Source of the DNA: Monosiga brevicollis MX1
Taxonomy: Eukaryota > Opisthokonta > Choanoflagellata > Craspedida > Salpingoecidae
NCBI RefSeq assembly: GCF_000002865.3
Contig: NW_001865040.1
Coordinates: forward strand, 2,268,135 to 2,297,484
Length of the DNA: 29,350 nucleotides
Reading direction: 5' to 3'
Position 1 is the stretch's first letter, and each line of letters opens with the position of its first letter. The notes under the pieces were generated by a model. It saw only the letters and a list, made by a program, of their open reading frames with translations. It had not been told where the DNA came from and did no database searches. Positions 7,564-28,579 of the stretch are shown one piece after another. Made by a program: the position numbers and the translations under genes.

Positions 7564-8090
7564 CCAAGCACGCTCTTTGGCAATGCAAGGGTTGTGGTCC
7601 GCAAACACGAACGGAACAGCACCGAGAGAGAGAGTGTGTGTGAGACTTGATACAGCAGCAGGCCAAGGGCATGGGCGACTGACCAGGAGGTTGCGCTTTG
7701 CGTTTTCATTTTGGTGTGCTCCGGCTGCTGGACGTCTTTGGGCTCTGTGAGTCGTACGAACCGTCGCCATGACGGGGTGCCAATTGATCTTGTCACCTGA
7801 TAGCCGAGTCATGAATCAAGGAGTCAAGCCTTTGGCCTCTCATCCGTTGACCTCAACACCTCTTACCAACCATCCCCTGTCCCTCCCTATCAGCAGCCCA
7901 CTCCCCACAAATACCAAACCGCCTTTCCAATCCATGAACATTGCACTCGTGTCCCCACCCACCAACTCATCGCCTTCCCCGTGATCACCGACCGACTCTG
8001 ATTGAACCGAACCGAACCCCCCAGCAGCTGCGTCAGGGGCGATGTGGCACAGATTGTCATCATTTTTTAGACACAGTTGGTGTTGCAAGA

Positions 8091-8158
<68 letters not shown>

Positions 8159-8518
8159 GTGCGTGCTGGGCACTTGAGGGGGTGGGAGGGGGTGTGCCAG
8201 GTGGGTGAAGGAGCTGCCGGGGAGCGGGTGCGGTAGATGAAATTTTGTGGGTGGATCTGCTGGACAAGGGGTGCGTTTTGCACCATTGCGGCTTTTGCTC
8301 CTATGCGTGGGGAGGGTTTGAAGGAGCGAGGATGACACCTTGGGAGTACTAGCCTGGCTGGGTTCGAGTCATCAGCTTTTGGTTCCTTCTGTGAGCTGGC
8401 ATTGTGCATTTTTTTTTCCAGCAACCTCGTCTCATCAACGCGTGGTCACGATTGCTTGCTATTTCCAGCGGCTCGGCTTCCTTGTGTTTCCCTGCCTAGT
8501 CAACCGGCAAGCGACAGG
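7564..8518. other. Intergenic region with GT microsatellite
   Basis: This 955-bp spacer lies between the small helical gene and the NmrA-like gene. It holds a Pro/Thr/Ser-coding low-complexity frame at 7769-7984 that I do not accept as a gene, and the (GT)n tract. The last 100 bases (8402-8518) are open in frame with the next gene but look like 5' UTR. No gene is supported. Confidence 0.55.
8093..8154. repeat. (GT)31 microsatellite
   Basis: This is an uninterrupted GT dinucleotide run of about 62 bp. On the other strand it reads as His-Thr repeats in two frames, which explains the odd ORFs there. Confidence 0.97.
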
Positions 8519-9412
8519 ATGGCGCCTTTGGTGACGATCGTGACGGGCAACTCCAACTCTGGAGCCCAGGCAGTGCACTCGCTGATGGGCAAGTATCGCG
8601 GGCAATGCCGAGTGCGAGCCTGCTTTCGCAGCGCCGCAAAGGCCGAGCCTTTTGTATCGGCATATGGCCAAGCAACTGATCTCTTCGAGTCTGTCGTGGG
8701 CATTGATGCCGCCGACCCCAAGTCACTTGTCCCTGCCTTTGAAGGGGCACGTTTTGCCGTTATTGTCACGCCGCATGACCACGCTCGCGGCATGGCCCAG
8801 GATGCGGAGCTGAGCAACAACATGATCGATGCCGCAGTTGCGGCTGGTGTGGAGCACATCATCTATGTCGGCAGCTGGACTGTGATTGACAAGTCGATGG
8901 GTGCCATCCCCGCTCGTTTCTTGGCTACCGAGGAGCATCTGCGTGAGCTGGGTGAAGCAGGTCGCGTGCGGTGGACCTCACTGCGCAGTGGTTTTTTCAA
9001 CCAGAATCTCATTCTGATGCTGAAGCCTCAAATCCAAGCCAGTGGTCAAGTGTTCTTCCCCAACATCAAGGGAGCCCCTGTGGACCCTGGGGACATGGGT
9101 CGAGTGGCGGCCGCCATTGCCACCAGTGCCGACGCGCAAGTGCACCATGGTCAGTACTATCAAATCTCCGGCCCCGTGGTTATGACCACGGCCGAGATGA
9201 CGACCAAGTTAGCAGCCGCCATGGGCACCACGGCCTCTTTCACGCCCGTGCCAGCCAGTAGCATGGAGCAAATTCCACCACCCGTGCGCGATCTGCTGGT
9301 CTGGATGGAGACGCACGACATTCCCTTTTCCGATGTCACTGCCCGCCTGACGGGTGGTGAGCACACCACGCTCGATGCTTGGCTGGAAGCCAATGCCGAC
9401 CTGCTGCAGTGA
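8519..9412 (+). CDS. NmrA-like atypical short-chain dehydrogenase, NAD(P)-binding
   Basis: This intronless gene of 297 aa runs from ATG 8519 to TGA 9410-9412, followed directly by in-frame TAA and TAG. The N-terminus has the Rossmann beta-alpha-beta start LVTIVTGNSNSG, a variant of the TGxxGxxG motif. Later come ARFAVIVTPHD, a conserved-type VEHIIYVGSW strand and LRSGFFNQNL, which match the order of elements in NmrA/HSCARG proteins. These bind NAD(P) and often act as redox sensors or reductases; the typical SDR YxxxK pair is not evident. The upstream frame is open to 8402 but without a good start. The lack of introns contrasts with its neighbours and could reflect retroposition or horizontal gain. 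Cytosolic location is inferred from the lack of a signal peptide. Confidence 0.85.
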   Translation: MAPLVTIVTGNSNSGAQAVHSLMGKYRGQCRVRACFRSAAKAEPFVSAYGQATDLFESVVGIDAADPKSLVPAFEGARFAVIVTPHDHARGMAQDAELSNNMIDAAVAAGVEHIIYVGSWTVIDKSMGAIPARFLATEEHLRELGEAGRVRWTSLRSGFFNQNLILMLKPQIQASGQVFFPNIKGAPVDPGDMGRVAAAIATSADAQVHHGQYYQISGPVVMTTAEMTTKLAAAMGTTASFTPVPASSMEQIPPPVRDLLVWMETHDIPFSDVTARLTGGEHTTLDAWLEANADLLQ

Positions 9413-9611: not shown

Positions 9612-10437
9612 CAACAAAGATAATTCAATACAGCCTTGTATTTTTTTCTTCTGTTCAAGGTCTTGATGGCTCAGTGCCGTTCTCCGGCCGAACGTGCCGT
9701 CTTCCCTGCCGTCCTCCTGCCGTCAACTGTCAAATGATCGTGCTGACAATGACCGTAAGGGCGCTTTCAAGCGCAACTTCGAGCCGGAGTTGAACGCGGT
9801 CAGCATTCGTGTACATGAGCTGCAAATTGTTCAAAAGGGGAATCGAGTATCACATCCGCCTTGATATTATCCCAAAGTATAATTAATGTTATACTATTAT
9901 GATAAGCAAGTGTGATAAAGTACAACATAGTGGCTTGTGCCATTTTGTCATCAAGCGAAAAGCAACACACAAACGAAAGAACCAAAGAAAGAACAAAAAG
10001 AAAGAACAAAAGAAAGAACAAAAGAAAGAACAAAAGAAAGAACAAAAGAAAGAACAAAAGAACAACAAGAACAAAAGAAAGAACAACAAGAACAAAAGAA
10101 AGAACAACAAGAACAAAAGAAAGAACAACAAGAACAAAAGAAAGAACAAAAGAAAGAACAAAAGAAAGAACAAAAGAAAGAACAACACCTCCAAAAGCCG
10201 TCAAGCCGGCAAAAGGGTCAGTGATCTTACTCGTTGACCATTACCAAGTGAAGGAAGGGGGGAGGTTATTTTATTTTTAAAGCGTTTAGGGTCGAGTCCG
10301 CGCGGCCTTCTTCAAGGGTACTGGACCTTTGAGTGATTTTGGCAGCCAGGCGCCCGACCTTCTCCTGGGTTGGGGTTTCCGAGAGTCATTGCATCGGTGC
10401 TGCGCTGTTGCTGCGTTGTGTAAGAATTACCGTTGAG
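9612..10437. other. Intergenic region with AAAGAACA minisatellite
   Basis: This 826-bp spacer lies between the NmrA-like and cupin genes. It contains the A-rich minisatellite listed separately. The 9620-9950 part is AT-rich towards its end, and 10200-10437 should include the cupin gene's promoter and 5' UTR. No gene is supported. Confidence 0.5.
9957..10187. repeat. A-rich minisatellite (AAAGAACA / AACAAGAACA units)
   Basis: About 230 bp of near-perfect repeats based on AAAGAACA occur, with a central block where the unit becomes AAAGAACAACAAGAACA. All three plus frames stay open as Lys/Glu/Arg/Thr repeats, and the minus strand reads as Phe/Leu/Val repeats. This is the signature of a repeat without stop codons and not of a gene. 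Confidence 0.93.
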
Positions 10438-11698
10438 ATGACATCGCGGCCCGTTAGGGCCGTGGCCCTGTGGGCGATTGTGGCCGTGGTGCAGTTGAAT
10501 GCAAACACGGCACGCGCCGTGCCTCTGGACGATGCCGTTACAACGACACTGGATGCTTCTCCAAATGAGGCCAATCCCATCCGCATGGTCGACCCCATGC
10601 TTCAGATCGATACCGTGGTTGTTCCCACTTTGCCCGAATATGCCGACTGGCCGCTTTTGCACAGGCAGCTTGATCAGACGATGGATCAGCTCCTTGAGAC
10701 TGGCGTCGTCTCCTTACGCGATAGCACCGGCGAGATCGTCGTCTTGGATTCAATTGATGGAGCCGTCGAGGGCACAACCGTGGACAGTCTTCTCGCAGCT
10801 GGCTACTCGCTTGTGATCAAACCTGAGCATGAGCCCTCCTTGTCCTCGTCCATGCACGCATTTACCGTCAGCAACGTTATTTCTCAGCAGATCCAAGCGC
10901 ATCTGGGTGTGGTCATGTCGGAACACTTTTACATCTCCCCGCCCAGCCAGCGGGCCCTGAGCCCGCATACTGATGGTGGCGATGTCTTTGTGCACCAGTG
11001 GGCTGGCAGCAAGCTTTGGACCCTCTGCGTGCCCAAAGCGCCCGATTGCCAGGATTGCACGTTCGCAGATTTGGCTCTCCGCGCCGAACTGGCCAAGTCG
11101 GCCTTCCAAGGTCTGTCATCGTTTCATTGTCAGCAGGCCCTCTGGATTAAGCGAGCTCGCTCAAGGTGCCTGATTTCCAAAACACTCGAGCAGTATATCT
11201 CTTTGCGCTGGACGGCAAATCACACTTTCACACTTGCTCACCCCTGTACACTTGCTTTGGCTGTCCCCGCCCAAAGGCTGCACCGCCTATACGGACGAAC
11301 AACTTGCCGGAATGGAATGCCGCACCTTGGATCTGCAAGAAAATGAGCTGCTTTACGTTCCGCGCGGTGTCGTCCACTATGCCCGAGCCAACTCGACCGG
11401 CCTGAGCGCCCACGCCACCTACCAAGTGGTGCCGCCCTCTGCCACCTGGATCGACATGGTGGTCGATGAATGTAGCCTCGCAGCAACCACGCGGGCTTGC
11501 AACGAGTTGAAGAATCAGCTTCTCCAAGCCGACCTGGGTTTTCGGTGGCTCAACTTTCGCTTTAAAGACGTCCACGTGGCGCCCGTTCTGCCCAACAAAC
11601 TCAACGCCTCGGAATATACGCTTCCCTCCACTCGCCTCGCCTCGCTCATTACCCGCCCGGCCTCCAATGACGAATCAGTCACGCGCACGGTTTGTTGA
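10438..11698 (+). CDS. Secreted Cupin_4/JmjC-type Fe(II)/2-oxoglutarate oxygenase-like protein
   Basis: Two exons, 10438-11110 and 11277-11698 (TGA), give 364 aa; the donor follows CAA-G and the acceptor ends CCCAAAG. The N-terminus, RAVALWAIVAVVQLNANTARA, reads as a cleavable signal peptide. The double-stranded beta-helix shows the metal triad: HTD (His177, Asp179) followed by VFVHQWAGSKLWTLC, and His258 in LLYVPRGVVHYA across the intron. These match the Cupin_4 group that includes ribosomal oxygenases NO66 and MINA53, but those lack signal peptides. Family members hydroxylate protein side chains; a substrate in the secretory pathway or outside the cell is inference. A donor-like GTTTGT at 11690 could instead splice in phase 0 into the receptor exon at 11778. 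Confidence 0.8.
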
Positions 11699-11777
11699 TA
11701 TGTTCTAGCCTGTGTCCCGATGTTGGTGTTGTGTGCTCGTCACCGCGTCCATAACCTTACATTCCTGAAAATCGCAG

Positions 11778-14700
11778 CGCCGTTCCTCGGATCGAGGCTA
11801 CAGCGGCAGAGGTTGTGGCTCATGCAACCAACGTTGCGACGACAGCTGGTTTGTCATTGCTCACGATTTGACGCTGCCCTTGAGTGAGCGAGTATGCGGG
11901 CGAGTTGCCAGAGTTGTTAATCGGTACGCATTCAACATTCTGCTGTTTATATTTGCAGTGATGGGAGCTGCGATTGGGTTGTGGGCAGCTGCGATGATAG
12001 CTGCGATAGCAGTTGCGGTATGTCATGCCATCAATGTGCAGCGCCTTACACCGACCATTCCCTATCGTGCTTTTTGTGTCTTACCGTACCTTGCATTTCT
12101 GGCTTTGTTGGCAGACTCGGTCGTTTGCAACTCTGGTTGCCGTTGCCCTCAAGGCTGGGGCAGCCTATTCGGTTACTGCAATTGTTCGTGTCTTAAAATG
12201 GATTCCTCGTGTCTCTCTATGTTTGCAACGCTCAGGCGCATTTGCGCAGATAGTTTGCCTCATTTTCTTGTCTGGCGCTTTGTGTCTATGCGTGGGTCGT
12301 GTTTCTGTCTGATTAGCTTGTAACTCTGGGCTGGACACTGTCAACGATGTGTGCAGTACGTTTTGACCCGACATCCGAGCCTTGCTGCCGAGCCTTTCTG
12401 GCTCTGCCATTGGTGCTGGTACGCTCAGCCAGCGTTTGTTTTTGCTCACCATGGCTGATCACGCTGACTTGCAGGTACTTGCGGCAAGGGCACCTACCAC
12501 GATATGGTTCGCTGTTTGAGCTGCGGTGCTGGTATGTGTTTATGTGCCATGCATTCCTTAGTGGTGCTAAGAGACCGTGACCATGCTGCACAACATACAC
12601 TAGCTTTGAACCCCAAATCCACACCAGACCCCGAGCCTCGCCCTCTTCATTCGTGTTCTTCGTTTCCGAATTTAGGTACCTACCAGGACAGTGCCAGCCA
12701 TCTTTCTACCTCATGCAAACCAAAGAGCCGCTGTCCTGCTGGTACTTACGACGCCAACGGTGGCAGGTACGGATGTTTTTGTCTGTATTTTTAGTGTTTG
12801 TCTGTATACCACGCCTTGTCGCCTTTGCTTTAGTATGATGGAGTCCTACTCTAACGTCCATCTTGTCATATCCCATCGCGTTGTCCCTGTCCAACGCAGC
12901 TCGTCTTCAAACACAAACTGCCTTGCTTGCCCGGCGGGCTCCTACCAAGATGCGACCAACCACCTGGAGACTTCTTGCAAGACCAAGACCAACACGTGCC
13001 CTGTTGGCCACTACGCCTCAAACGGTGGCAGCACTACAAGTGATCGCATCTGCGCCGTGTGTCCCGACGGTATGCCAATCCCTCGAACTGTCCCTGTATC
13101 ATTTTGTCTCGGATACATGATTATATGCGCATCCCCCCCGGCCCTTTGTTTTATCAACCCGCTTGATAATCGTTGGTCAATTCCCAGGTACTTGGATGAA
13201 TATCAATGGTAACTCAGCCCAGCAGTGCTATCAGAAATCTGTGCCATGCTCACCTGGCCAAGAGGTTTCAAACAAGGGTGACAAGACGGCCGACAACATT
13301 TGCGCCGCCTGCAGCTCAAGTGCGCACCATTTTTTTGTTTGCGCACTATTTCTTTGCCTGCTTGAAGGTGTTGGACACAACTGCTCATTGTCAACTCATT
13401 CTCCAACACCCGTCTCCAATGGCTTTGTTAGATTCATATCAACCCAGCCAGGGCTTGGCTGTACAGTGTACACGGAAGACTAACACTTGCAAAGCCGGCG
13501 AATATGTGACCAATCCAGATTCCCTGACCTCGGATTACTCCTGTGGTATCTGCGCTGCCGGTACGCCATCCCGTACTTTAGCCCTTCCGCCCCTCCACAT
13601 CGTCCTTTTGGCATGACTGCGCGCTCTGACACGTTTGTACTTGCGCAACATTTCGATTGGATTGCACGGCATGATGGCGGTCTCGATCACCAAGGCACTG
13701 TTCAACCCAGCAGCTCACACACTTCCTCAACATGCCACGGTCAGGGCTTCCGAGTTGCTTGCTCACCCGTTGCCTCCGCCATGACCTTTTCCTCTTTGTC
13801 CTCCTTCGTTTTACGGCTCTACGCCCAGCTCTCCACGTTAACGTGTGTGCCTCACGACTTGTCGATGATTTTGATTCTGCAGCGTGTGCGGCCGGCAATT
13901 ACCAAGCCAGTGCAGGGCAAACCTCTTGTTTGCCCTGCCCAGTTGACTCGTATTCTGATACCTCCGCAGCTACCTCGTGCAAACGTATGTTGATGGAGAC
14001 CACTTCGTTTCCTCCTTTGTCGTAACCTTTTTGGTCTTCAGCACCAAAGGATGCTCTTCTGGGTATTGACTTGGCAACGTGCGCGCCCCTCATGCGTTCC
14101 CGTGGGCGTGTTCATCTTCCTTGTTCAGCTTGCGATCTCAGCCATGGCGCTTATCAGGATCAAACCGGTCAAACTTCATGTGACGGCTGTGGAGTTGGTA
14201 CGTGTATTCATTCTGCTTCTCAAAAGCCTACTCAGATAAGCCATACGCAACGCCCTGATTGTATCGCTGATGCCTTAACTTGCGAAATTCTCAGGTTCGC
14301 GTCTGGATTTGACGACGTCAAGTTGCATCCCCTGTGCTGCTGGCAAATATCAAGGCCAGCCCTACAGTACTGTCTGCATCGATTGTGCAGCGGGCAAGTA
14401 TAGCCTTGCGAGCGCGTCAGTGTGCTCGGCTTGCCCAGCTGGCACCTACTCGGAGCTGGCTCAAGCCTCGGCGTGTACACAGTGTCCCGCGGGCAAGTTC
14501 TCTGCCAGTGAGAATTCAATCTCGTGTGCCCGCTGCTCTGCTGGCACTTACCAAGCACAGGCTGGCCAATCCGACTGCCAGACCTGCCAAGCTGGCTATA
14601 CTGTCAATCCCGATTTTACTCAATGCACTGGTGCGATTGACCCTCTGCTGGCACTGGATCGTTTTGGCATGTAGTTGCCAAATCAGTCGCGTACTGAGTT

Positions 14701-17700
14701 TCTGCCCTCGCCTTGTCTGATGTCTGACTTTTGTGCTCACTAGATGTCACGCCGCCCGAGTTGACGTTGGCCCCCAACGCCATCGTCCGGTTCGAAGCTC
14801 TGACCAATACTTTTGTCTATCCTACGGTGACAGCCACGGATACGAGTGGCGAAAGAATTGTCGTGACGCACACCAACAATGTTCAGCCAGGTGAGCCTCT
14901 ACTTTCTTTCTTCATTCTTTAATCCTGGCTCTATGGCCTCTGGGGTCCTGCGTCGTCTGCATGCTTGCTTTATTTTTTGTGGTGGTCATGCGGTGTCTGA
15001 ACGGCATATGCTTCCACTCATCTCCTCTTTGCCCATTGGCTTCTTCTTCTTTGAATCTTGCTTTGGCTAATCTTCAGACGAAGTCGGCACTTATGATGTG
15101 ACCTATTCTGGCGAGGACAGTGCCAAGAACAAGGGTGTCTTGGTTGTTCAGGTGATCATCTTTGCGGCCCGAAAACCGGTCATCGTGCTTCTTGGCCCGG
15201 TGGTCATGACGCTCGAAGTGCACACTCGTTTCAACGACCCCATGGGCTATGTGATCGATGAGGGCGAACCCAACAACCTCAACAACACCCTAGCTAGTAA
15301 CACAAGCGCTCTGGACATTGACACCCTCGGTACTTACTATGTCGTATATTCCATGCACACGCCCGACTCCCAAGGCCTGACCGCCTCGCCTGTGCGGCGC
15401 ACCGTCCATGTCGTCGACACGACGCCTCCCGTAAGTGCCCCACCAACTTTGCTATGCGCTCATACACGTCAGTGGAGTCGTCTTTGTTGAGCAGCATCTC
15501 ACTGTACGCTTATTGCTCACTTGCAATTGATGAATCACAGGTGATCTCGTTGACGCAGGGTGTCAACGTGACCGTTGAGGCGGGTTCCACCTGGTCCGAG
15601 CCTGGGTTTAGCATTCGGGATAACTACGATACCATGGCCATCGGCGACGTGACGGTGGAGCCTGTCGCGCTTAATCTCAAGGTGCCCAACGGCACGGTCC
15701 TCACCGTCGACTACATGGCTACCGATCGCAGCGGCAACGCCGTTTCCATCACACGCTATGTTCTTGTGCTGGATCGCCTCGCACCCACCATCACCCTGCT
15801 CAACGCCACCCGGCTGACTGCCGAGGCGGGTGACTTGTACTTTGAGTTCGATGCGGTGGCCGAGGATCAGTTGGATGATGATGTTGACCTGAGCATCACC
15901 TACCCAGATGGCGTCACCGTTGGTGGTGAATTGCAGCCTCCGTCTTTGCCCTTTGATTACAGCATTGTTTACACTGCCCGAGATGATGTTGGGAACACGG
16001 CTCATGCCACTCGCACCCTGACCGTGGTGGACACCAAGGCTCCCAGCCTTGAAGCCATCACCTCGGAGGTACACCTCGAGGCCGGTGCCGCCTATGCCAT
16101 CAATGCTTCGTGGTATTCCGTGCGCGACAACTACAAGGCCACGCCCACCATCTCCACCAACGTGTCGGCGCTGCCGCGCACCCACGTGATGACGCCCTAT
16201 CGTGCCAACGTGCAAATCACTGCCACCGATTCGCAAGGCAATCGAAACGCCACCTCGCTGCGAGTGCTCTTGGTGGATACTACCGCCCCCATGTTGACTT
16301 TGATCACCTCCAACGTCACCTCGGGCACTGATTTTAAAATTAGCGACCTCGTGACTGCCTACGACAGCAATGATGGGGTGTTGGACAGCGTTGTGGATAT
16401 GAACACCCACGGTACGAACGTGCTTGATCTACCCTCAACCCCAACCTGCCCCGTCGATCGAATCCGTTCCGCTGCGTCCAACGCCTATCAGCAGGCGCGC
16501 GCGGAGCGCATTCGCAGCACCAACACTCAGGTCGTAGGTGATGCGCCGGCCGGCAGCACCTACACTGTCGACTTTATTGTCACCGATGCGGCTGGCAACT
16601 CTGACTCCCTGCGCGGCGTGGTACTTACACTGCGCGATGATACAGCGCCTGTCATTGCCACCTCGGGCACGCCCACCGACCAGATTGAATACACGCGCGC
16701 AGCCAACCAGCTCGAGCTGCCTCTCACTGCATCTGACAACCTCGATGGCGATATCTCTTCTTGGGTTTGTCTGAGCGTGGCACGTTATGCTCCGCGCACG
16801 GCCGAGAGGACCCCAAATGTCTCGCGAACCGGATTGCTCGAGCCAGTGAGCCACAACTTCAACGACTTTGCTGAGGCGGGTCGCCCTTGGGGTGCCTCGG
16901 GCGGACGCCCCTTGCTTCTTCTTGACGAGCCTGTGGGAACGCTCTATGTTGTCAATGCGAGTGTTATGGACGGAGCGGGCAACACGGCGACACGCACCTT
17001 CCGCTACCTCATCGTGGATACGACTCCCCCTGTCCTCACACTCACATACCCCGGCAGCTACCATGTGCCCTACGACACCACCTTTATTGATCCAGGGTTC
17101 ACCGTGTTTGATGAGTCAGACGACTTGTCAGAGCACGTGCTCGTGTTGAATGCAGACCGTGTGAATCCGCGATTCCCTGGCACATACGTAGTTCAATACC
17201 GCACCAACGATCGGTATGGCAACCCGGCAGAGGCAGCGCGCTCCGTGATTGTGGACAACTTTACACTCCCAGCCGATGATGCCATCGTCACCATCGAGTA
17301 TGCGGCGAGCATCAGCCTAGCACCTTTTGCGCGTGCCTTTGAGGAGCAGCTTCGTGGTGCGCTGGGCTATCCATACATCTTTGTTGTCGGTCGCCATGCC
17401 GGTGCCGACACAACTGAGGATCGATTCAACACGCTTCCCGGCTCGGCGTCTAGCAGCAGCTCCCGCCGTCGCTCCCTGCAGGCTGCCACGAACACTTCGT
17501 TCGAGCTGTGCATGCGCTCCACGACCACCCTTGCTTGGGTGCCAGCTGAGACACTGGCTGGAATTATTCGAGCCTGGAACAACCCCAATGTGACCGTGAC
17601 CTCGATTCCTCTGCCCCCAGACCCCAACAACGCTGCCAGTGCCTCCACGGGCAACAAGAGTGGTGCTGACGCAGGGCTGATTGGCGCCATCGCAGGAGCT

Positions 17701-19532
17701 GCCGTGGGATTGGTTCTGGTGATCGTCTTGGTGCTGGTGGTGCTCCGACGCCGAAACAGCTCTGCTTCCAAGCAGCTCGCCGCGCCGTCATTCCAAGCCA
17801 ACAGCCACAGCATGGCCAATCCTTTGTTTGACCAGGACGTGTCTGGCTCGGTCCAAGCTTCAACCTATAACCATCTTGCGCTTGACGGCGAGTACCAGGA
17901 TGTGAACCCCGATGATCCGGGCTATGACGATTTTGAGGATCGTCCCGGTTTCGGCTCGGGCCCTGACGAGGATGACATCGATGGCGATGGCGGCTACTTT
18001 TACACGGATGTAGAGGGTGCAGCACCGGATGCCGGCACTGAACGCGCGCACGCCACCTTTGTGAATGAGGCGTACATGAGCGTCGACGATGACTTTAATG
18101 ACAGTAACGAGTATCACGAGGCCGTGCCTCGGGCCACGATGCCGGACGACACCTATGGCGTCGAAGGAGATTACGCGTTGGCTGTTCCGTCGGGTGGGGC
18201 GACGGAGACCACGTATGGTCTCAAGCTGGGCAACGGTGCCTATGGGGCGGATAACGCTTATGACCAGCCCACTTTCATGGCCAGTACATCAGCTGAGTAT
18301 GACGTTCCCATGTCTGCCGACGATAGCCAAGCGCTGGCCAAGGGTTATGCAGTCCCTTCAGTGCGAGATGGTCCGGCTTCGACCTCACACTACGATGTGC
18401 CTTTGTCCTCCATTACCGAACCTGCTCAGTATGCCGCGGTGAGCCATGACGAGGCCGAGCAGACACCGATGTATGGCGAAGGCGCAGCGCCCAAGTCCAT
18501 GTCGCTGACGCTGCAGTNNNNNNNNNNNNNNNNNNNNNNNNNNNNNNNNNNNNNNNNNNNNNNNNNNNNNNNNNNNNNNNNNNNNNNNNNNNNNNNNNNN
18601 NNNNNNNNNNNNNNNNNNNNNNNNNNNNNNNNNNNNNNNNNNNNNNNNNNNNNNNNNNNNNNNNNNNNNNNNNNNNNNNNNNNNNNNNNNNNNNNNNNNN
18701 NNNNNNNNNNNNNNNNNNNNNNNNNNNNNNNNNNNNNNNNNNNNNNNNNNNNNNNNNNNNNNNNNNNNNNNNNNNNNNNNNNNNNNNNNNNNNNNNNNNN
18801 NNNNNNNNNNNNNNNNNTACATTTGGTACCGTGAATGAGGTGGCTGACGACGAGGTGGGCCATCTTTTGTTGATTGAGGAGGCTAGCAAACTCCCCTCGT
18901 ACCGCGGCTCCGCCTCGCGTCGGGATGCGCAGACCGAGTTGGAGACCTTGCCTGTGGGCAGCTATATTTTGCGCTACTCGGACAACACCAAGCAGTTGGT
19001 GCTGAGCGTGCGCTCGCGTTCGCGCGTGCAGCATCACGTTCTCAGCATCAACGCCCAAGACGAGGTGCTTTTCAATGAGAAGGTGATGCCGGGCGCGCGC
19101 GATCTTGCGTCGGCCATGCACATTCTGAGCTCTCCAGAGCTTTATCAAGATTTTCTGAGCGTCCCTCTCTGGACAGCTGATGCAGCAGACACGGCCGAGG
19201 GGCCGGCGGCGGGGCTCGACGGCGAGCCCTACTTTCACGGACAGATTGATCGCTCAGAAGCCGAAAAGCGCCTCTTGGCCAATGGGTCGGATAACGCCTT
19301 TCTGGTGCGCGCTCGATCGGCCGGCTCCTACGCCTTATCCATCCTGAGCCTGAAGAGTAAAGATGCCAAGTGCCACCACCATCTTCTTGAAGTCAACGAG
19401 GAGGGTTTGGTGACGCTTAACAACGACCTTCTTTCTCCGCCCTGCACATCGATTGTGGGTGCAGTGGAGCTGCTCCGTCGCGTCCCGCCCGAGAACATCG
19501 ATCAACCGCAGGTGCCAGTCGCCCGCACTTAG
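11778..19532 (+). CDS. Transmembrane receptor: Cys-rich repeats, HYR/DUF5011 repeats, TM, tandem SH2
   Basis: Exons on plus: 11778-11923 (uncertain), 11959-12017, 12115-12171, 12475-12531, 12676-12766, 12900-13069, 13188-13319, 13432-13560, 13695-13739, 13883-13984, 14129-14197, 14295-14630, 14744-14890, 15078-15430, 15541 into the gap, then 18818-19532 (TAG). All junctions agree in phase. Up to 14630 the product is Cys-rich, becoming clear GCC2_GCC3/ephrin-receptor-like repeats (CxxCxAGxY). Next come about eight Ig-like HYR/DUF5011 repeats with boundaries such as DTTPPVLTL and YGNPAEAARSVIVD, then a juxtamembrane region with an RRRSLQ site, a TM helix, a tyrosine-rich acidic tail and two SH2 domains. 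No kinase or phosphatase is visible. The 5' end is unresolved: no signal peptide is certain. It likely senses an external ligand and signals by phosphotyrosine. Confidence 0.82.
11959..14630 (+). other. Cys-rich ectodomain region with GCC2_GCC3-like repeats
   Basis: These exons encode repeated modules of the form C-x2-C-x2-G-x-Y-x(8-12)-C. Regular copies are CPAGSYQDATNHLETSC (exon 12900-13069), CAAGNYQASAGQTSC (13883-13984) and a run of about four between 14295 and 14630, for example CPAGTYSELAQASACTQC. Earlier exons are more degenerate, such as GSCDDSCDSSC. Such repeats occur in ephrin receptors and many choanoflagellate surface proteins. Most modules coincide with one exon bounded by phase-1 introns. 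Confidence 0.85.
14744..17270 (+). other. HYR/DUF5011-like Ig-fold repeats
   Basis: About eight repeats of 80-130 residues each begin with a (T)xPP/AP-x-(I/L)-x-L motif: VTPPELTL, RKPVIVLL, TPPVISLT, LAPTITLL, KAPSLEAI, TAPMLTLI, TAPVIATS and TPPVLTLT. Each ends with a Y-x-V-x-Y/F-x-A-x-D-x-x-GN pattern and V-x-(D/V)-D. This is the layout of hyalin (HYR) and DUF5011 modules in cell-surface adhesion proteins. The last six lie in a single exon starting at 15541. Confidence 0.85.
17674..17745 (+). other. Transmembrane helix of the receptor
   Basis: Codons for GLIGAIAGAAVGLVLVIVLV and four more hydrophobic residues are followed at once by RRR, a positive stop-transfer signal that orients the C-terminus to the cytosol (type I). 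Small-xxx-small spacing (GAIAGAAVG) could support helix packing. Confidence 0.95.
18519..18817. other. Assembly gap (299 N) inside the receptor tail
   Basis: Positions 18519-18817 are N. The frame entering the gap (tail) differs from the frame leaving it (SH2 part), so either the true gap length differs from the estimate or an intron lies within it. Up to about 100 residues between the tail and the first SH2 domain are unseen at the stated size. Confidence 1.
18880..19500 (+). other. Tandem SH2 domains at the receptor C-terminus
   Basis: SH2-1 starts near SYRG at 18897 and has the core GSYILRYSD; the phosphate-binding Arg codon is 18972-18974. A VLSV strand and HH follow. SH2-2 starts at YFHGQIDRSEAEKRLL (19230) with FLVRAR (Arg 19308-19310), YALSI and HHH. 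In both, the FLVR arginine and the beta-D histidine are kept, so both are predicted to bind phosphotyrosine. About 30 residues separate them. The chain ends 14 residues after SH2-2. Confidence 0.93.
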
Positions 19533-20385
19533 GCCTCTCGTGTACATTCTTGTGCATTCCCATTTCCTTGACATCTAGATGCGCTTTCCTTCTTCATCTT
19601 CTTCTACTTTTTTTTTTTTTTTTTTTCCCGTTGTTCGTCATGTCACTGATCATATAAGAACAATCGGTTTCTGCTCGACTTCTTGTTCTGTGCGGTTTCC
19701 CCTTTGTTATTGATCACTCTCATGGATCTGCTTTGGTTCTTTTTCCTTTTTCCTTATTTTTTTTTTTTTTTTTTTTTGGGTTCACCTTATCGCTGGCACA
19801 CGTTGGCTGCGCACATACCCTTTTTGTGTCAGTTTTGCGGTGCGTCTGCATTTATCGCCATCGTCTTCATTTTGTCAAGTGCACTCGTTGTGGTCTCGCT
19901 TCCATTTTTGCCGTGTTGTTTTTTTTTGGACGTTGACGTTTCTCTGAACTCGCTTAGGCGGGGATGTGGGGAGCGTCTTGTGGGGCACCTGCTATGCGAT
20001 GCTCTTTGTGATGTTGCTATAGATAGTTCATGAGATTGGTTACGGCCATCTCATTTTCTTGACACAACCAATTGCCATGAAGGGTCTTGCTCGGCTGGTG
20101 AGTGCATGTTCAGCTGTCAATTCGCATCAAACACAAAACACAAACACAAGCAAGAAAAAAGAACACAAAATTTGTCATTCGACACAAAGCAAGCAAATCA
20201 TCATCAATCAAACATCAACAAAACAAAAGTACAACAACATAAGCAAGTGTACATGGACGTGTAGATCCCATTTGGCTTTGATCACTCTCTCAAAAAGTCA
20301 CTGACACACGCGAACTTGATTGATCTCCGAGGGACTCGAGCAAGCGCGATCATCTTGCTGGTTCTGCTCGACCTGAAAAGGCGGA
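19533..20385. other. Intergenic region with T-runs
   Basis: This 853-bp spacer follows the receptor stop and precedes the GH3 gene. T homopolymers at about 19609-19626 and 19757-19777 create hydrophobic Phe/Leu ORFs that are not credible. A-rich sequence lies at 20130-20235. It should hold the receptor 3' UTR and the GH3 promoter. Confidence 0.5.
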
Positions 20386-27692: not shown

Positions 27693-28280
27693 TCATGATG
27701 GCTTGCGCACGACCCGCTTGAAGTAGCGGGGGTGCAGGACGCCGTCTTGTCCAGCCGTGAGGAGCACGCGGTTGCGGGAGATGAAGACGGGGATACCATC
27801 GCGGAGCACTTGGTCGAGGTCGAGGTAGATCCAAACGTTGCAGGTGGTGCGCATACCAGAAATCACCTCACGGCTGCCCGGCTCGGCAGTGCTGAAGTGA
27901 ATGTGCTGGCGGCCCATGGTGCGCAAGCCCTCGCGCTGAATTTGGGCCCAGGCGGCATGATAGGTGCCGTGGACAACCACGGGCCAGTCTGCTGCGCTCA
28001 GGACAGGATCAAGAAGGCTGTCCTCTTGCACATTGAGCGAGTGGCCCTGGGTGGCGCGCACGCGCAGGGGGCCCTCGCGCAGTTCGAAACGGCCCTTGGC
28101 ATCAGTGGCGACAATCTCGCGAACCGTGTCATCGTCCAGATGGCGCAGCTTGTCATGGCGACGCAAATCAGCAGTATGAACAAAGCCATCCTTGCTCATG
28201 GGAACGCCTTCCTTCTCAGCGCCGTGTCGCAGAAGGTACGTCATGGTCTTGGATAGCCGTGTGAGTCGTCGGTCCGCCAT
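27693..28280 (-). CDS. TPT1: tRNA 2'-phosphotransferase (Tpt1/KptA family)
   Basis: This intronless minus-strand gene starts at ATG 28280 and stops at 27693, 195 aa. Tpt1 removes the 2'-phosphate left at the splice junction of tRNA by fungal-type ligation, transferring it to NAD+. All family blocks are present in order: LLRHGA with Arg18-His19, SKDGFVHTADLR, VRATQGHS with Arg75, VVVHGTYHAAW, GRQHIHFS, SGMR with Arg144, and a C-terminal FISRNRVLLTAGQDG followed by HPRYFKRVV. The four catalytic residues (Arg-His-Arg-Arg) are therefore kept. The length is normal for a core enzyme without extensions. No targeting signal is seen, so a nuclear or cytosolic site is assumed. Upstream lies an A-rich stretch (28327-28360) and then the right repeat arm. 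Confidence 0.95.
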   Translation of the reverse strand: MADRRLTRLSKTMTYLLRHGAEKEGVPMSKDGFVHTADLRRHDKLRHLDDDTVREIVATDAKGRFELREGPLRVRATQGHSLNVQEDSLLDPVLSAADWPVVVHGTYHAAWAQIQREGLRTMGRQHIHFSTAEPGSREVISGMRTTCNVWIYLDLDQVLRDGIPVFISRNRVLLTAGQDGVLHPRYFKRVVRKPS

Positions 28281-28579
28281 GATCGTCGCTCCTTGCTCTA
28301 CTCTAAACTCAAGTCAGAGGAAGAAAGGGAAAAGGAAAAAAAAATAAAAAATAAAAAACGAATGAAAGCGTTTGGTGTTGCGCGTCGATCGATTGATCGC
28401 TGCGAGGCTGTGGTCTGCCTTGAAGAAGTGCTTGGGCAGATATCCAAGAGAAAAATGCCACCAAAGAGCCAGTCCCACCCACGAGATCAAGTCGGTGCTG
28501 TGAGGTGCGCGCCAGAGGGCGGGAGGAGGTGGAGTCGAGGTGCGCGCAAAAACTTTTTTTTTTGTTATGCAACGGCACC
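28281..28579. promoter_or_regulatory. Upstream region of the tRNA phosphotransferase gene
   Basis: About 300 bp lie between the TPT1 start and the right repeat arm. An A-rich stretch (28327-28360) lies close to the start codon on the other strand as a T-rich tract. No specific promoter element is recognised and no gene is supported. Confidence 0.4.

Follow-up and report, generated by a model that had tools for sequence, protein, structure and literature searches.

We analysed a stretch of 29,350 nucleotides from the choanoflagellate Monosiga brevicollis MX1 (contig NW_001865040.1, positions 2,268,135 to 2,297,484 of the forward strand), in the following called the window, and found in it a gene for a receptor that ends inside the cell in a tandem of SH2 domains. 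Its predicted architecture, namely a JmjC domain followed by cysteine-rich repeats, Ig-like repeats, a single transmembrane (TM) helix and the two SH2 domains, is well supported. Nearly the same ectodomain is encoded at a second locus in front of a tyrosine kinase. We assign a probability of about 0.6 to the explanation that the window holds one type I receptor gene, the kinase-less member of a pair, in which both versions would share a ligand, the kinase version would phosphorylate and the SH2 version would cross-link. The genome searched comprised 39.47 Mb in 57 contigs (denoted C below), with the window on C55. The features of the gene are the following, in window positions:

10438..10518, plus strand: N-terminal hydrophobic leader, signal-peptide-like, in the first codons (translation, by eye; similar leaders precede JmjC in C38, C51, C12 and C47a)
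10894..11410, plus strand: JmjC domain with intron 1 (11111-11276) inside (PF08007, 44.1 bits in the spliced protein)
10966-10983 and within 11354-11383, plus strand: JmjC residues, HxD and distal His, respectively
10570..17601, plus strand: block common to the kinase-tailed twin (C38:694795-701812, 95.6% identical)
11778..14630, plus strand: cysteine-rich region, exons 3-14, Ephrin_rec_like / TNFR-like repeats (PF07699, 99.3 bits with a hand-made exon model)
14744..17270, plus strand: about eight Ig-like (Bact_surface_Ig-like / HYR) repeats, exons 15-17 (Pfam; number by eye)
17275..17616, plus strand: membrane-proximal domain of 114 amino acids, loop SSRRRSLQ at 17458-17481 (family alignment of 10 rows; low-confidence model)
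17674..17745, plus strand: single TM helix, RRR immediately after it (Kyte-Doolittle scan, 3.26)
17746..18517, plus strand: cytoplasmic tail rich in tyrosine, containing NPLF (in 17812-17832), YDQP, two YDVP and YAVP
18518..18817, no strand: assembly gap of 300 N, nominal length; the frames differ on either side
18891..19175, plus strand: SH2-1, the weaker domain, betaB5 Arg in YILRYS, ends approximate
19224..19500, plus strand: SH2-2, betaB5 Arg in FLVRAR, ends approximate
19530..19532, plus strand: stop codon

The gene was modelled with 17 exons from 10438 to the gap. All introns had GT-AG ends and no stop was found in 1964 codons, a result obtained partly by construction as the exon ends were picked manually with regard to the frame. 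The remaining two frames of the spliced sequence contained 52 and 88 stops. The donor of exon 5 (12189) is provisional. For Ephrin_rec_like a score of 63.5 bits was obtained in the single exon supplied to Pfam, compared with the 99.3 bits of the spliced protein. Among the Ig-like families Bact_surface_Ig-like (DUF5011-type) gave 80.4 bits in three stretches and HYR a weaker 25.4 bits; the eight repeats were tallied by eye on a D-x-x-x-P motif. Pfam scans of the window, which did not include a protein joined from exons 15 and 16, revealed no cadherin ectodomain, and they gave no tyrosine kinase in what can be read of the receptor's cytoplasmic side.

An earlier note, made from the sequence of the window, had described a receptor with cysteine-rich repeats, about eight HYR/DUF5011 repeats, one TM helix and a tandem SH2 end. 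Each of these parts was backed by Pfam or by the hydrophobicity scan, and the repeat number agreed with our count, with Bact_surface_Ig-like rather than HYR as the best Pfam match. Its reading as a tandem-SH2 receptor without kinase was supported by Pfam and by the relatives described below, and its proposal that the receptor serves as its own adaptor is plausible. The start at 11959 had to be corrected: this position marks the fourth exon only, and the gene begins at about 10438 with the leader and the JmjC domain. Both the JmjC domain at the head and the twin with a kinase tail had escaped the note.

For the SH2 part Pfam returned 62.5 bits in two stretches of the window (E up to 1). In the genome-wide search, which yielded 114 SH2 matches, SH2-2 passed the Pfam cut-off with 38.2 bits. 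SH2-1 is supported by its alignment with the SH2-1 domains of the relatives and by a joint match of both domains to such relatives, as to C47a (residues 22-224 of 237, E 3.1e-22), in which both SH2 domains pass the cut-off. The betaB5 arginine was kept in 14 of 14 aligned receptor SH2 domains including both of the window (by eye; the alignment omits the two C33 copies). The best PDB sequence matches of SH2-2 were SYK and ZAP-70, which likewise possess two SH2 domains. SYK and ZAP-70 are cytosolic kinases, whereas the SH2 pair of the window would be membrane-bound and kinase-less.

The link between the TM helix and the SH2 domains crosses the gap and is taken from relatives in which the frame is unbroken. 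With exactly 300 bases the reading frame does not continue from one flank of the gap to the other, so that this length must be nominal unless the gap contains an intron. We fetched 15 loci by place, chosen for their matches and therefore giving no frequency. TM helix and SH2 shared one uninterrupted frame in eight of them: two SH2 domains were present in C47a, C12, C38a, C47b and C54, and one in C41, C21 and C33b, where the last is clipped by the end of the fetched stretch. In C33a the SH2 lay in a neighbouring frame relative to the TM helix; C33a and C33b are two very similar copies of an SH2-tailed receptor. A tyrosine kinase took the place of the SH2 domains in C38 (693-706 kb) and C51. At C37:246000-255500 we observed the same kind of ectodomain, a TM helix and a tyrosine-rich tail, with no SH2 or kinase found in frame. 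No TM-SH2 frame was found at two C35 loci, where 3664 bases of one stretch are N, and at C34.

Since eight relatives carry TM helix and SH2 in an unbroken frame, the gap is not the source of this architecture. The distance between the TM helix and SH2-1 was 420, 384 and 380 amino acids in C47a, C12 and C38a, respectively, and shorter (67-308 amino acids) in C47b, C41, C21 and C54. For the window a value of about 382 amino acids follows arithmetically from the nominal gap size. This is within the range of the relatives, so that nothing of the size of a kinase should be missing. A kinase is too big for the nominal gap, and none was listed in the eight relatives. Both a separate SH2 gene and a kinase hidden in the gap were rejected on the basis of the uninterrupted relatives.

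The JmjC domain had its closest PDB sequences in MINA53 (2.2e-9) and NO66. Its two His and the Asp, the Fe(II) ligands, line up with those of MINA53 (HxD...H kept). HTDGGD and the distal His were kept in 5/5 aligned members with both halves readable, and in the same five a hydrophobic N-terminus precedes the domain (by eye). While MINA53 and NO66 are ribosomal oxygenases, the JmjC domain found here sits behind a leader on a receptor ectodomain. Leader and receptor fusion together point to a putative location outside the cell. That the JmjC domain and the cysteine-rich repeats belong together is supported by C54, where a single frame of 1467 amino acids holds the second half of JmjC and the repeats, and by a small exon (RRxSDxxYxGxGCGSC) that follows the JmjC exon in the window and also in C38 and C51. 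An unrelated upstream JmjC gene was rejected on these grounds.

We further counted merged JmjC loci throughout the genome. All 50 JmjC and 114 SH2 rows entered this count; the kinase, Ephrin_rec_like and Ig-like rows were hand-chosen subsets and provide lower bounds. In 4 of 36 merged loci, the window among them, an SH2 lay no more than 16 kb downstream on the same strand, and a kinase did so in at least 4 of 36. On this count of 4/36 loci, the idea that every member of the family carries JmjC was rejected. At C54:2060045 and C56:1849742 JmjC is followed 2-3 kb downstream on the same strand by a tyrosine kinase, possibly representing more JmjC receptor kinases. A giant relative at C54:137500-153500 comprises JmjC, many Ephrin/TNFR repeats, a TM helix and two SH2 domains, with the repeats in two very long open frames.

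Two observations could be taken to indicate two or three adjacent genes, i.e. a JmjC protein (10438-11698), a receptor (11.7-18.5 kb) and an SH2 adaptor past the gap: a stop occurs at the third codon past the exon 2 donor, and the frames differ across the gap. However, JmjC and cysteine-rich repeats share one frame in C54, the exon after JmjC is kept in C38 and C51, and TM helix and SH2 share a frame in eight relatives. We consider a split into adjacent genes barely credible and the least probable of the alternatives discussed here.

Of the new results, the twin on C38 is the strongest. The alignment of the common block spans 7044 bp at 95.6% identity and is the sole match between window positions 9800-20200 and C38:693500-706499. 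The block starts shortly past the leader and stops short of the TM helix; past the membrane the SH2-SH2 end of the window and the tyrosine kinase of the twin are unrelated. When exons 2-16 were mapped onto the twin by alignment, all 15 of 15 had unchanged length and AG/GT ends. The similarity was uneven along the block. In its first 1.5 kb about 10% of the positions differed (144/1477 aligned bases, 10570-12069), and at 14.1-15.5 kb the identity exceeded 99% with introns included. The synonymous divergence (Ks) fell from 0.35 in that portion of exon 1 which lies in the block through 0.20 (exons 2-5) and 0.038 (exons 6-12) to 0.014 (exons 13-16), and was 0.067 for the portion of exon 17 inside the block. 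Introns 13-16 were 98.9-100% identical, which makes selection at the protein level an unlikely cause of the similarity. The longest identical run measured 448 bp, compared with a maximum of 320 over 2000 shuffles (279 differences in 7007 aligned bases) in a test that presumes an even rate along the block. This pattern, obtained by comparing loci of one species, favours gene conversion as the process that would have homogenised the two ectodomains.

Near-identical kilobases are a recognised cause of assembly mis-joins, and a gap lies nearby. The assembler could therefore have joined wrong halves at the near-identical stretch, in which case either the twin or the window would be unreal. We hold such a chimera to be very improbable: the first 1.5 kb differ by about 10%, so that two copies must have been assembled separately, and the SH2 and the kinase type were each seen elsewhere with diverged ectodomains.

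The juxtamembrane part and first kinase part of the twin are 65% identical to C51 over 189 amino acids. In addition, a 142-bp upstream stretch of the twin (C38:694145-694286) is 96.5% identical to C51 and has no match in window positions 9800-20200; it is perhaps a promoter or a repeat. The JmjC exons of C51 are about equidistant from the window and C38 (exon 2: 345/413 to each). With the kinase similarity and the common 142-bp stretch placing C38 in the line of C51, and the JmjC exons equidistant, the twin would seem to be a C51-type receptor kinase whose ectodomain is shared with the window's SH2 receptor. This suggests one outside sensor wired to two different inside outputs.

The part of the ectodomain closest to the membrane was compared in an alignment of ten rows, which was good for the window, the twin and the closer relatives and loose for C41, C21 and C37. 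A strict RRR was found in the loop of 7 of the 10 rows; C12 and C33a carry two-Arg variants, and C38a carries none. A single-sequence AlphaFold2 model had the order strand-helix-strand, loop, strand-helix-strand. Its mean predicted local distance difference test score (pLDDT) was 44.8 and that of a second model 39.6; being poor, both were used for strand order alone. This order is that of SEA-type domains. Pfam gave no SEA family match in the window (E up to 1), and we treat the SEA- or Notch-like strand order of the modelled domain as a lead. The RRR loop is a possible cleavage site common to SH2- and kinase-tailed receptors.

On the cytoplasmic side the tails of several relatives carry repeated YDxPN sites. 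Compared with shuffles of the tails, YxxP sites were in excess in C47a, C12 and C38a (p 0.0002 each), C41 (0.0004) and C47b (0.014); these p values refer to eight tails, are uncorrected and fall below 0.05 in six, with the window tail clipped at the gap. An NPx[YF] motif was present within the first 60 residues past the TM helix in 6 of 8 tails, and NPLY occurs in C33a and C33b. NPTY, NPVY or NPLY are found in several tails and NPLF or NPTF in others, with NPLF in the window. Through its PTB domain the cytosolic kinase HMTK1 of Monosiga binds an NPVY peptide in phosphorylated form; the authors of that work put forward two Monosiga proteins with SH2 domains, of which one is transmembrane, as candidates (PMC3082566, in excerpt). 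As NPLF lacks the tyrosine, this phosphorylated PTB mode is inapplicable to the window. In the twin, tyrosines in acidic settings follow the kinase (by eye) and are possible SH2 sites.

For the favoured explanation of a receptor pair we infer a mechanism that consists of a shared ligand, phosphorylation and SH2 binding. The SH2 version and the C38 kinase version would bind the same ligand, which would cluster them together. The kinase version, or a cytosolic kinase, would then phosphorylate the YxxP-type tail of the SH2 version. Phosphotyrosines in the tail of the same receptor, in neighbouring molecules and in the tail of the kinase version could be gripped by the SH2 domains, and this grip would hold the cluster together and recruit partners. 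A more detailed proposal is tentative and in our view rather doubtful: a JmjC-headed sensor would exist in kinase and SH2 versions, with ectodomains homogenised by gene conversion and inner ends swapped, one ligand would join a phosphotyrosine writer and reader, and the JmjC domain would be an extracellular oxygenase or a sensor of 2-oxoglutarate or oxygen.

A near-identical ectodomain combined with a kinase-less inner end would also be expected of an inhibitory or decoy partner. In this case the SH2 version would bind the same ligand, and its SH2 domains would cap the phosphotyrosines of the kinase version or recruit a phosphatase. Opposing paired receptors exist in mammals (PMC5701461, in excerpt). 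However, the tyrosine motifs in the tail of the SH2 version exceed the need of a pure decoy, and we regard this role as unlikely, if worth considering. We think it unlikely, though also worth considering, that the receptor is instead kept closed by its SH2 domains binding the own tail in cis until a ligand or proteolysis at the membrane-proximal loop opens it, the twin being merely a source of recombination. Such a closed state would agree with several relatives in which a single chain carries both YDxP-type arrays and SH2 domains, and with the RRR loop in 7/10 rows, among which window and twin are near-identical and count as one. In C54, in contrast, the 67 amino acids from the TM helix to SH2-1 are free of tyrosine, and the C21 tail shows no excess of YxxP.

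Several points weigh against the explanation as a receptor pair of the described build. Besides the hand-picked exon ends, the even rate presumed by the identical-run test, the out-of-frame flanks of the gap and the poor structure models, SH2-1 of the window is absent from the list of the genome-wide SH2 search (114 matches). No upstream JmjC match was obtained for C38a, C47b, C41 and C21, such that JmjC is not present in the whole SH2-tailed set. Toward its 3' end the block once more becomes less similar to the twin, with 26 differences in 17070-17569. The tail of the window has four YxxP sites in place of YDxPN repeats, and its YxxP excess is weak (4 compared with 1.2 expected, p=0.024); the shuffles gave no YxxP excess for the C21 and C54 tails.

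Choanoflagellate transmembrane SH2 proteins (PMC3082566, PMC6040629) and receptor kinases with Cys/HYR ectodomains (PMC3584944, PMC10263333) are already in print, as judged from excerpts of these papers. Monosiga has a transmembrane cadherin+SH2 protein (gene model 11339) and the SH2 protein 34447 (PMC3082566). Like 11339, the window family has SH2 on a transmembrane protein, and the NPxY motif also occurs in several tails here. The ectodomain of 11339 is a cadherin instead of JmjC/Cys/Ig-like, and the excerpt mentions no kinase twin. In Choanoeca perplexa a protocadherin-TM-SH2 protein similarly places SH2 inside on a receptor-like chain with another ectodomain (PMC6040629, in excerpt). RTKC8 and RTKB2 of Monosiga resemble the window receptor in a Cys-rich and HYR ectodomain and one TM helix; inside they have a tyrosine kinase where the window has SH2-SH2, and the excerpts of PMC10263333 and PMC3584944 do not mention JmjC, the head of the window receptor. 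Among the literature matches listed, which do not extend to the two phosphotyrosine surveys of Monosiga from 2008 or to its genome paper, there was no JmjC-headed or HYR-type SH2 receptor and no SH2/kinase pair with one ectodomain.

The nearest logic to window and twin is found in the paired receptors Siglec-11 and Siglec-16, whose ectodomains are alike by gene conversion and whose signalling ends differ (PMC5701461, in excerpt). These are Ig-like lectins with which animal cells bind sialic acid; one of the two inhibits and the other activates, and similar ligand binding was shown for them, whereas for window and twin a shared ligand is proposed. Near-identical ectodomains with different signalling ends, the mark of paired receptors, were found for window and twin.

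Elsewhere in the window we noted a gene for an NmrA-like NAD(P)-binding protein (8336-9409), a Tpt1/KptA RNA 2'-phosphotransferase on the minus strand (27696-28313) and intergenic simple repeats with long open frames on both strands (about 8060-8180 and 9930-10220).

Paired receptors are familiar from the immune systems of animals. If our explanation is true, the same logic would operate in a single-celled relative of animals, and swapping entire ectodomains would have been a way in which phosphotyrosine receptor wiring was tried out, earlier than in animals or alongside them. If the JmjC domain does lie on the extracellular side of a receptor, this would be an unusual site for an oxygenase fold. 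The finding raises a testable question: does one ligand unite a phosphotyrosine writer and reader?

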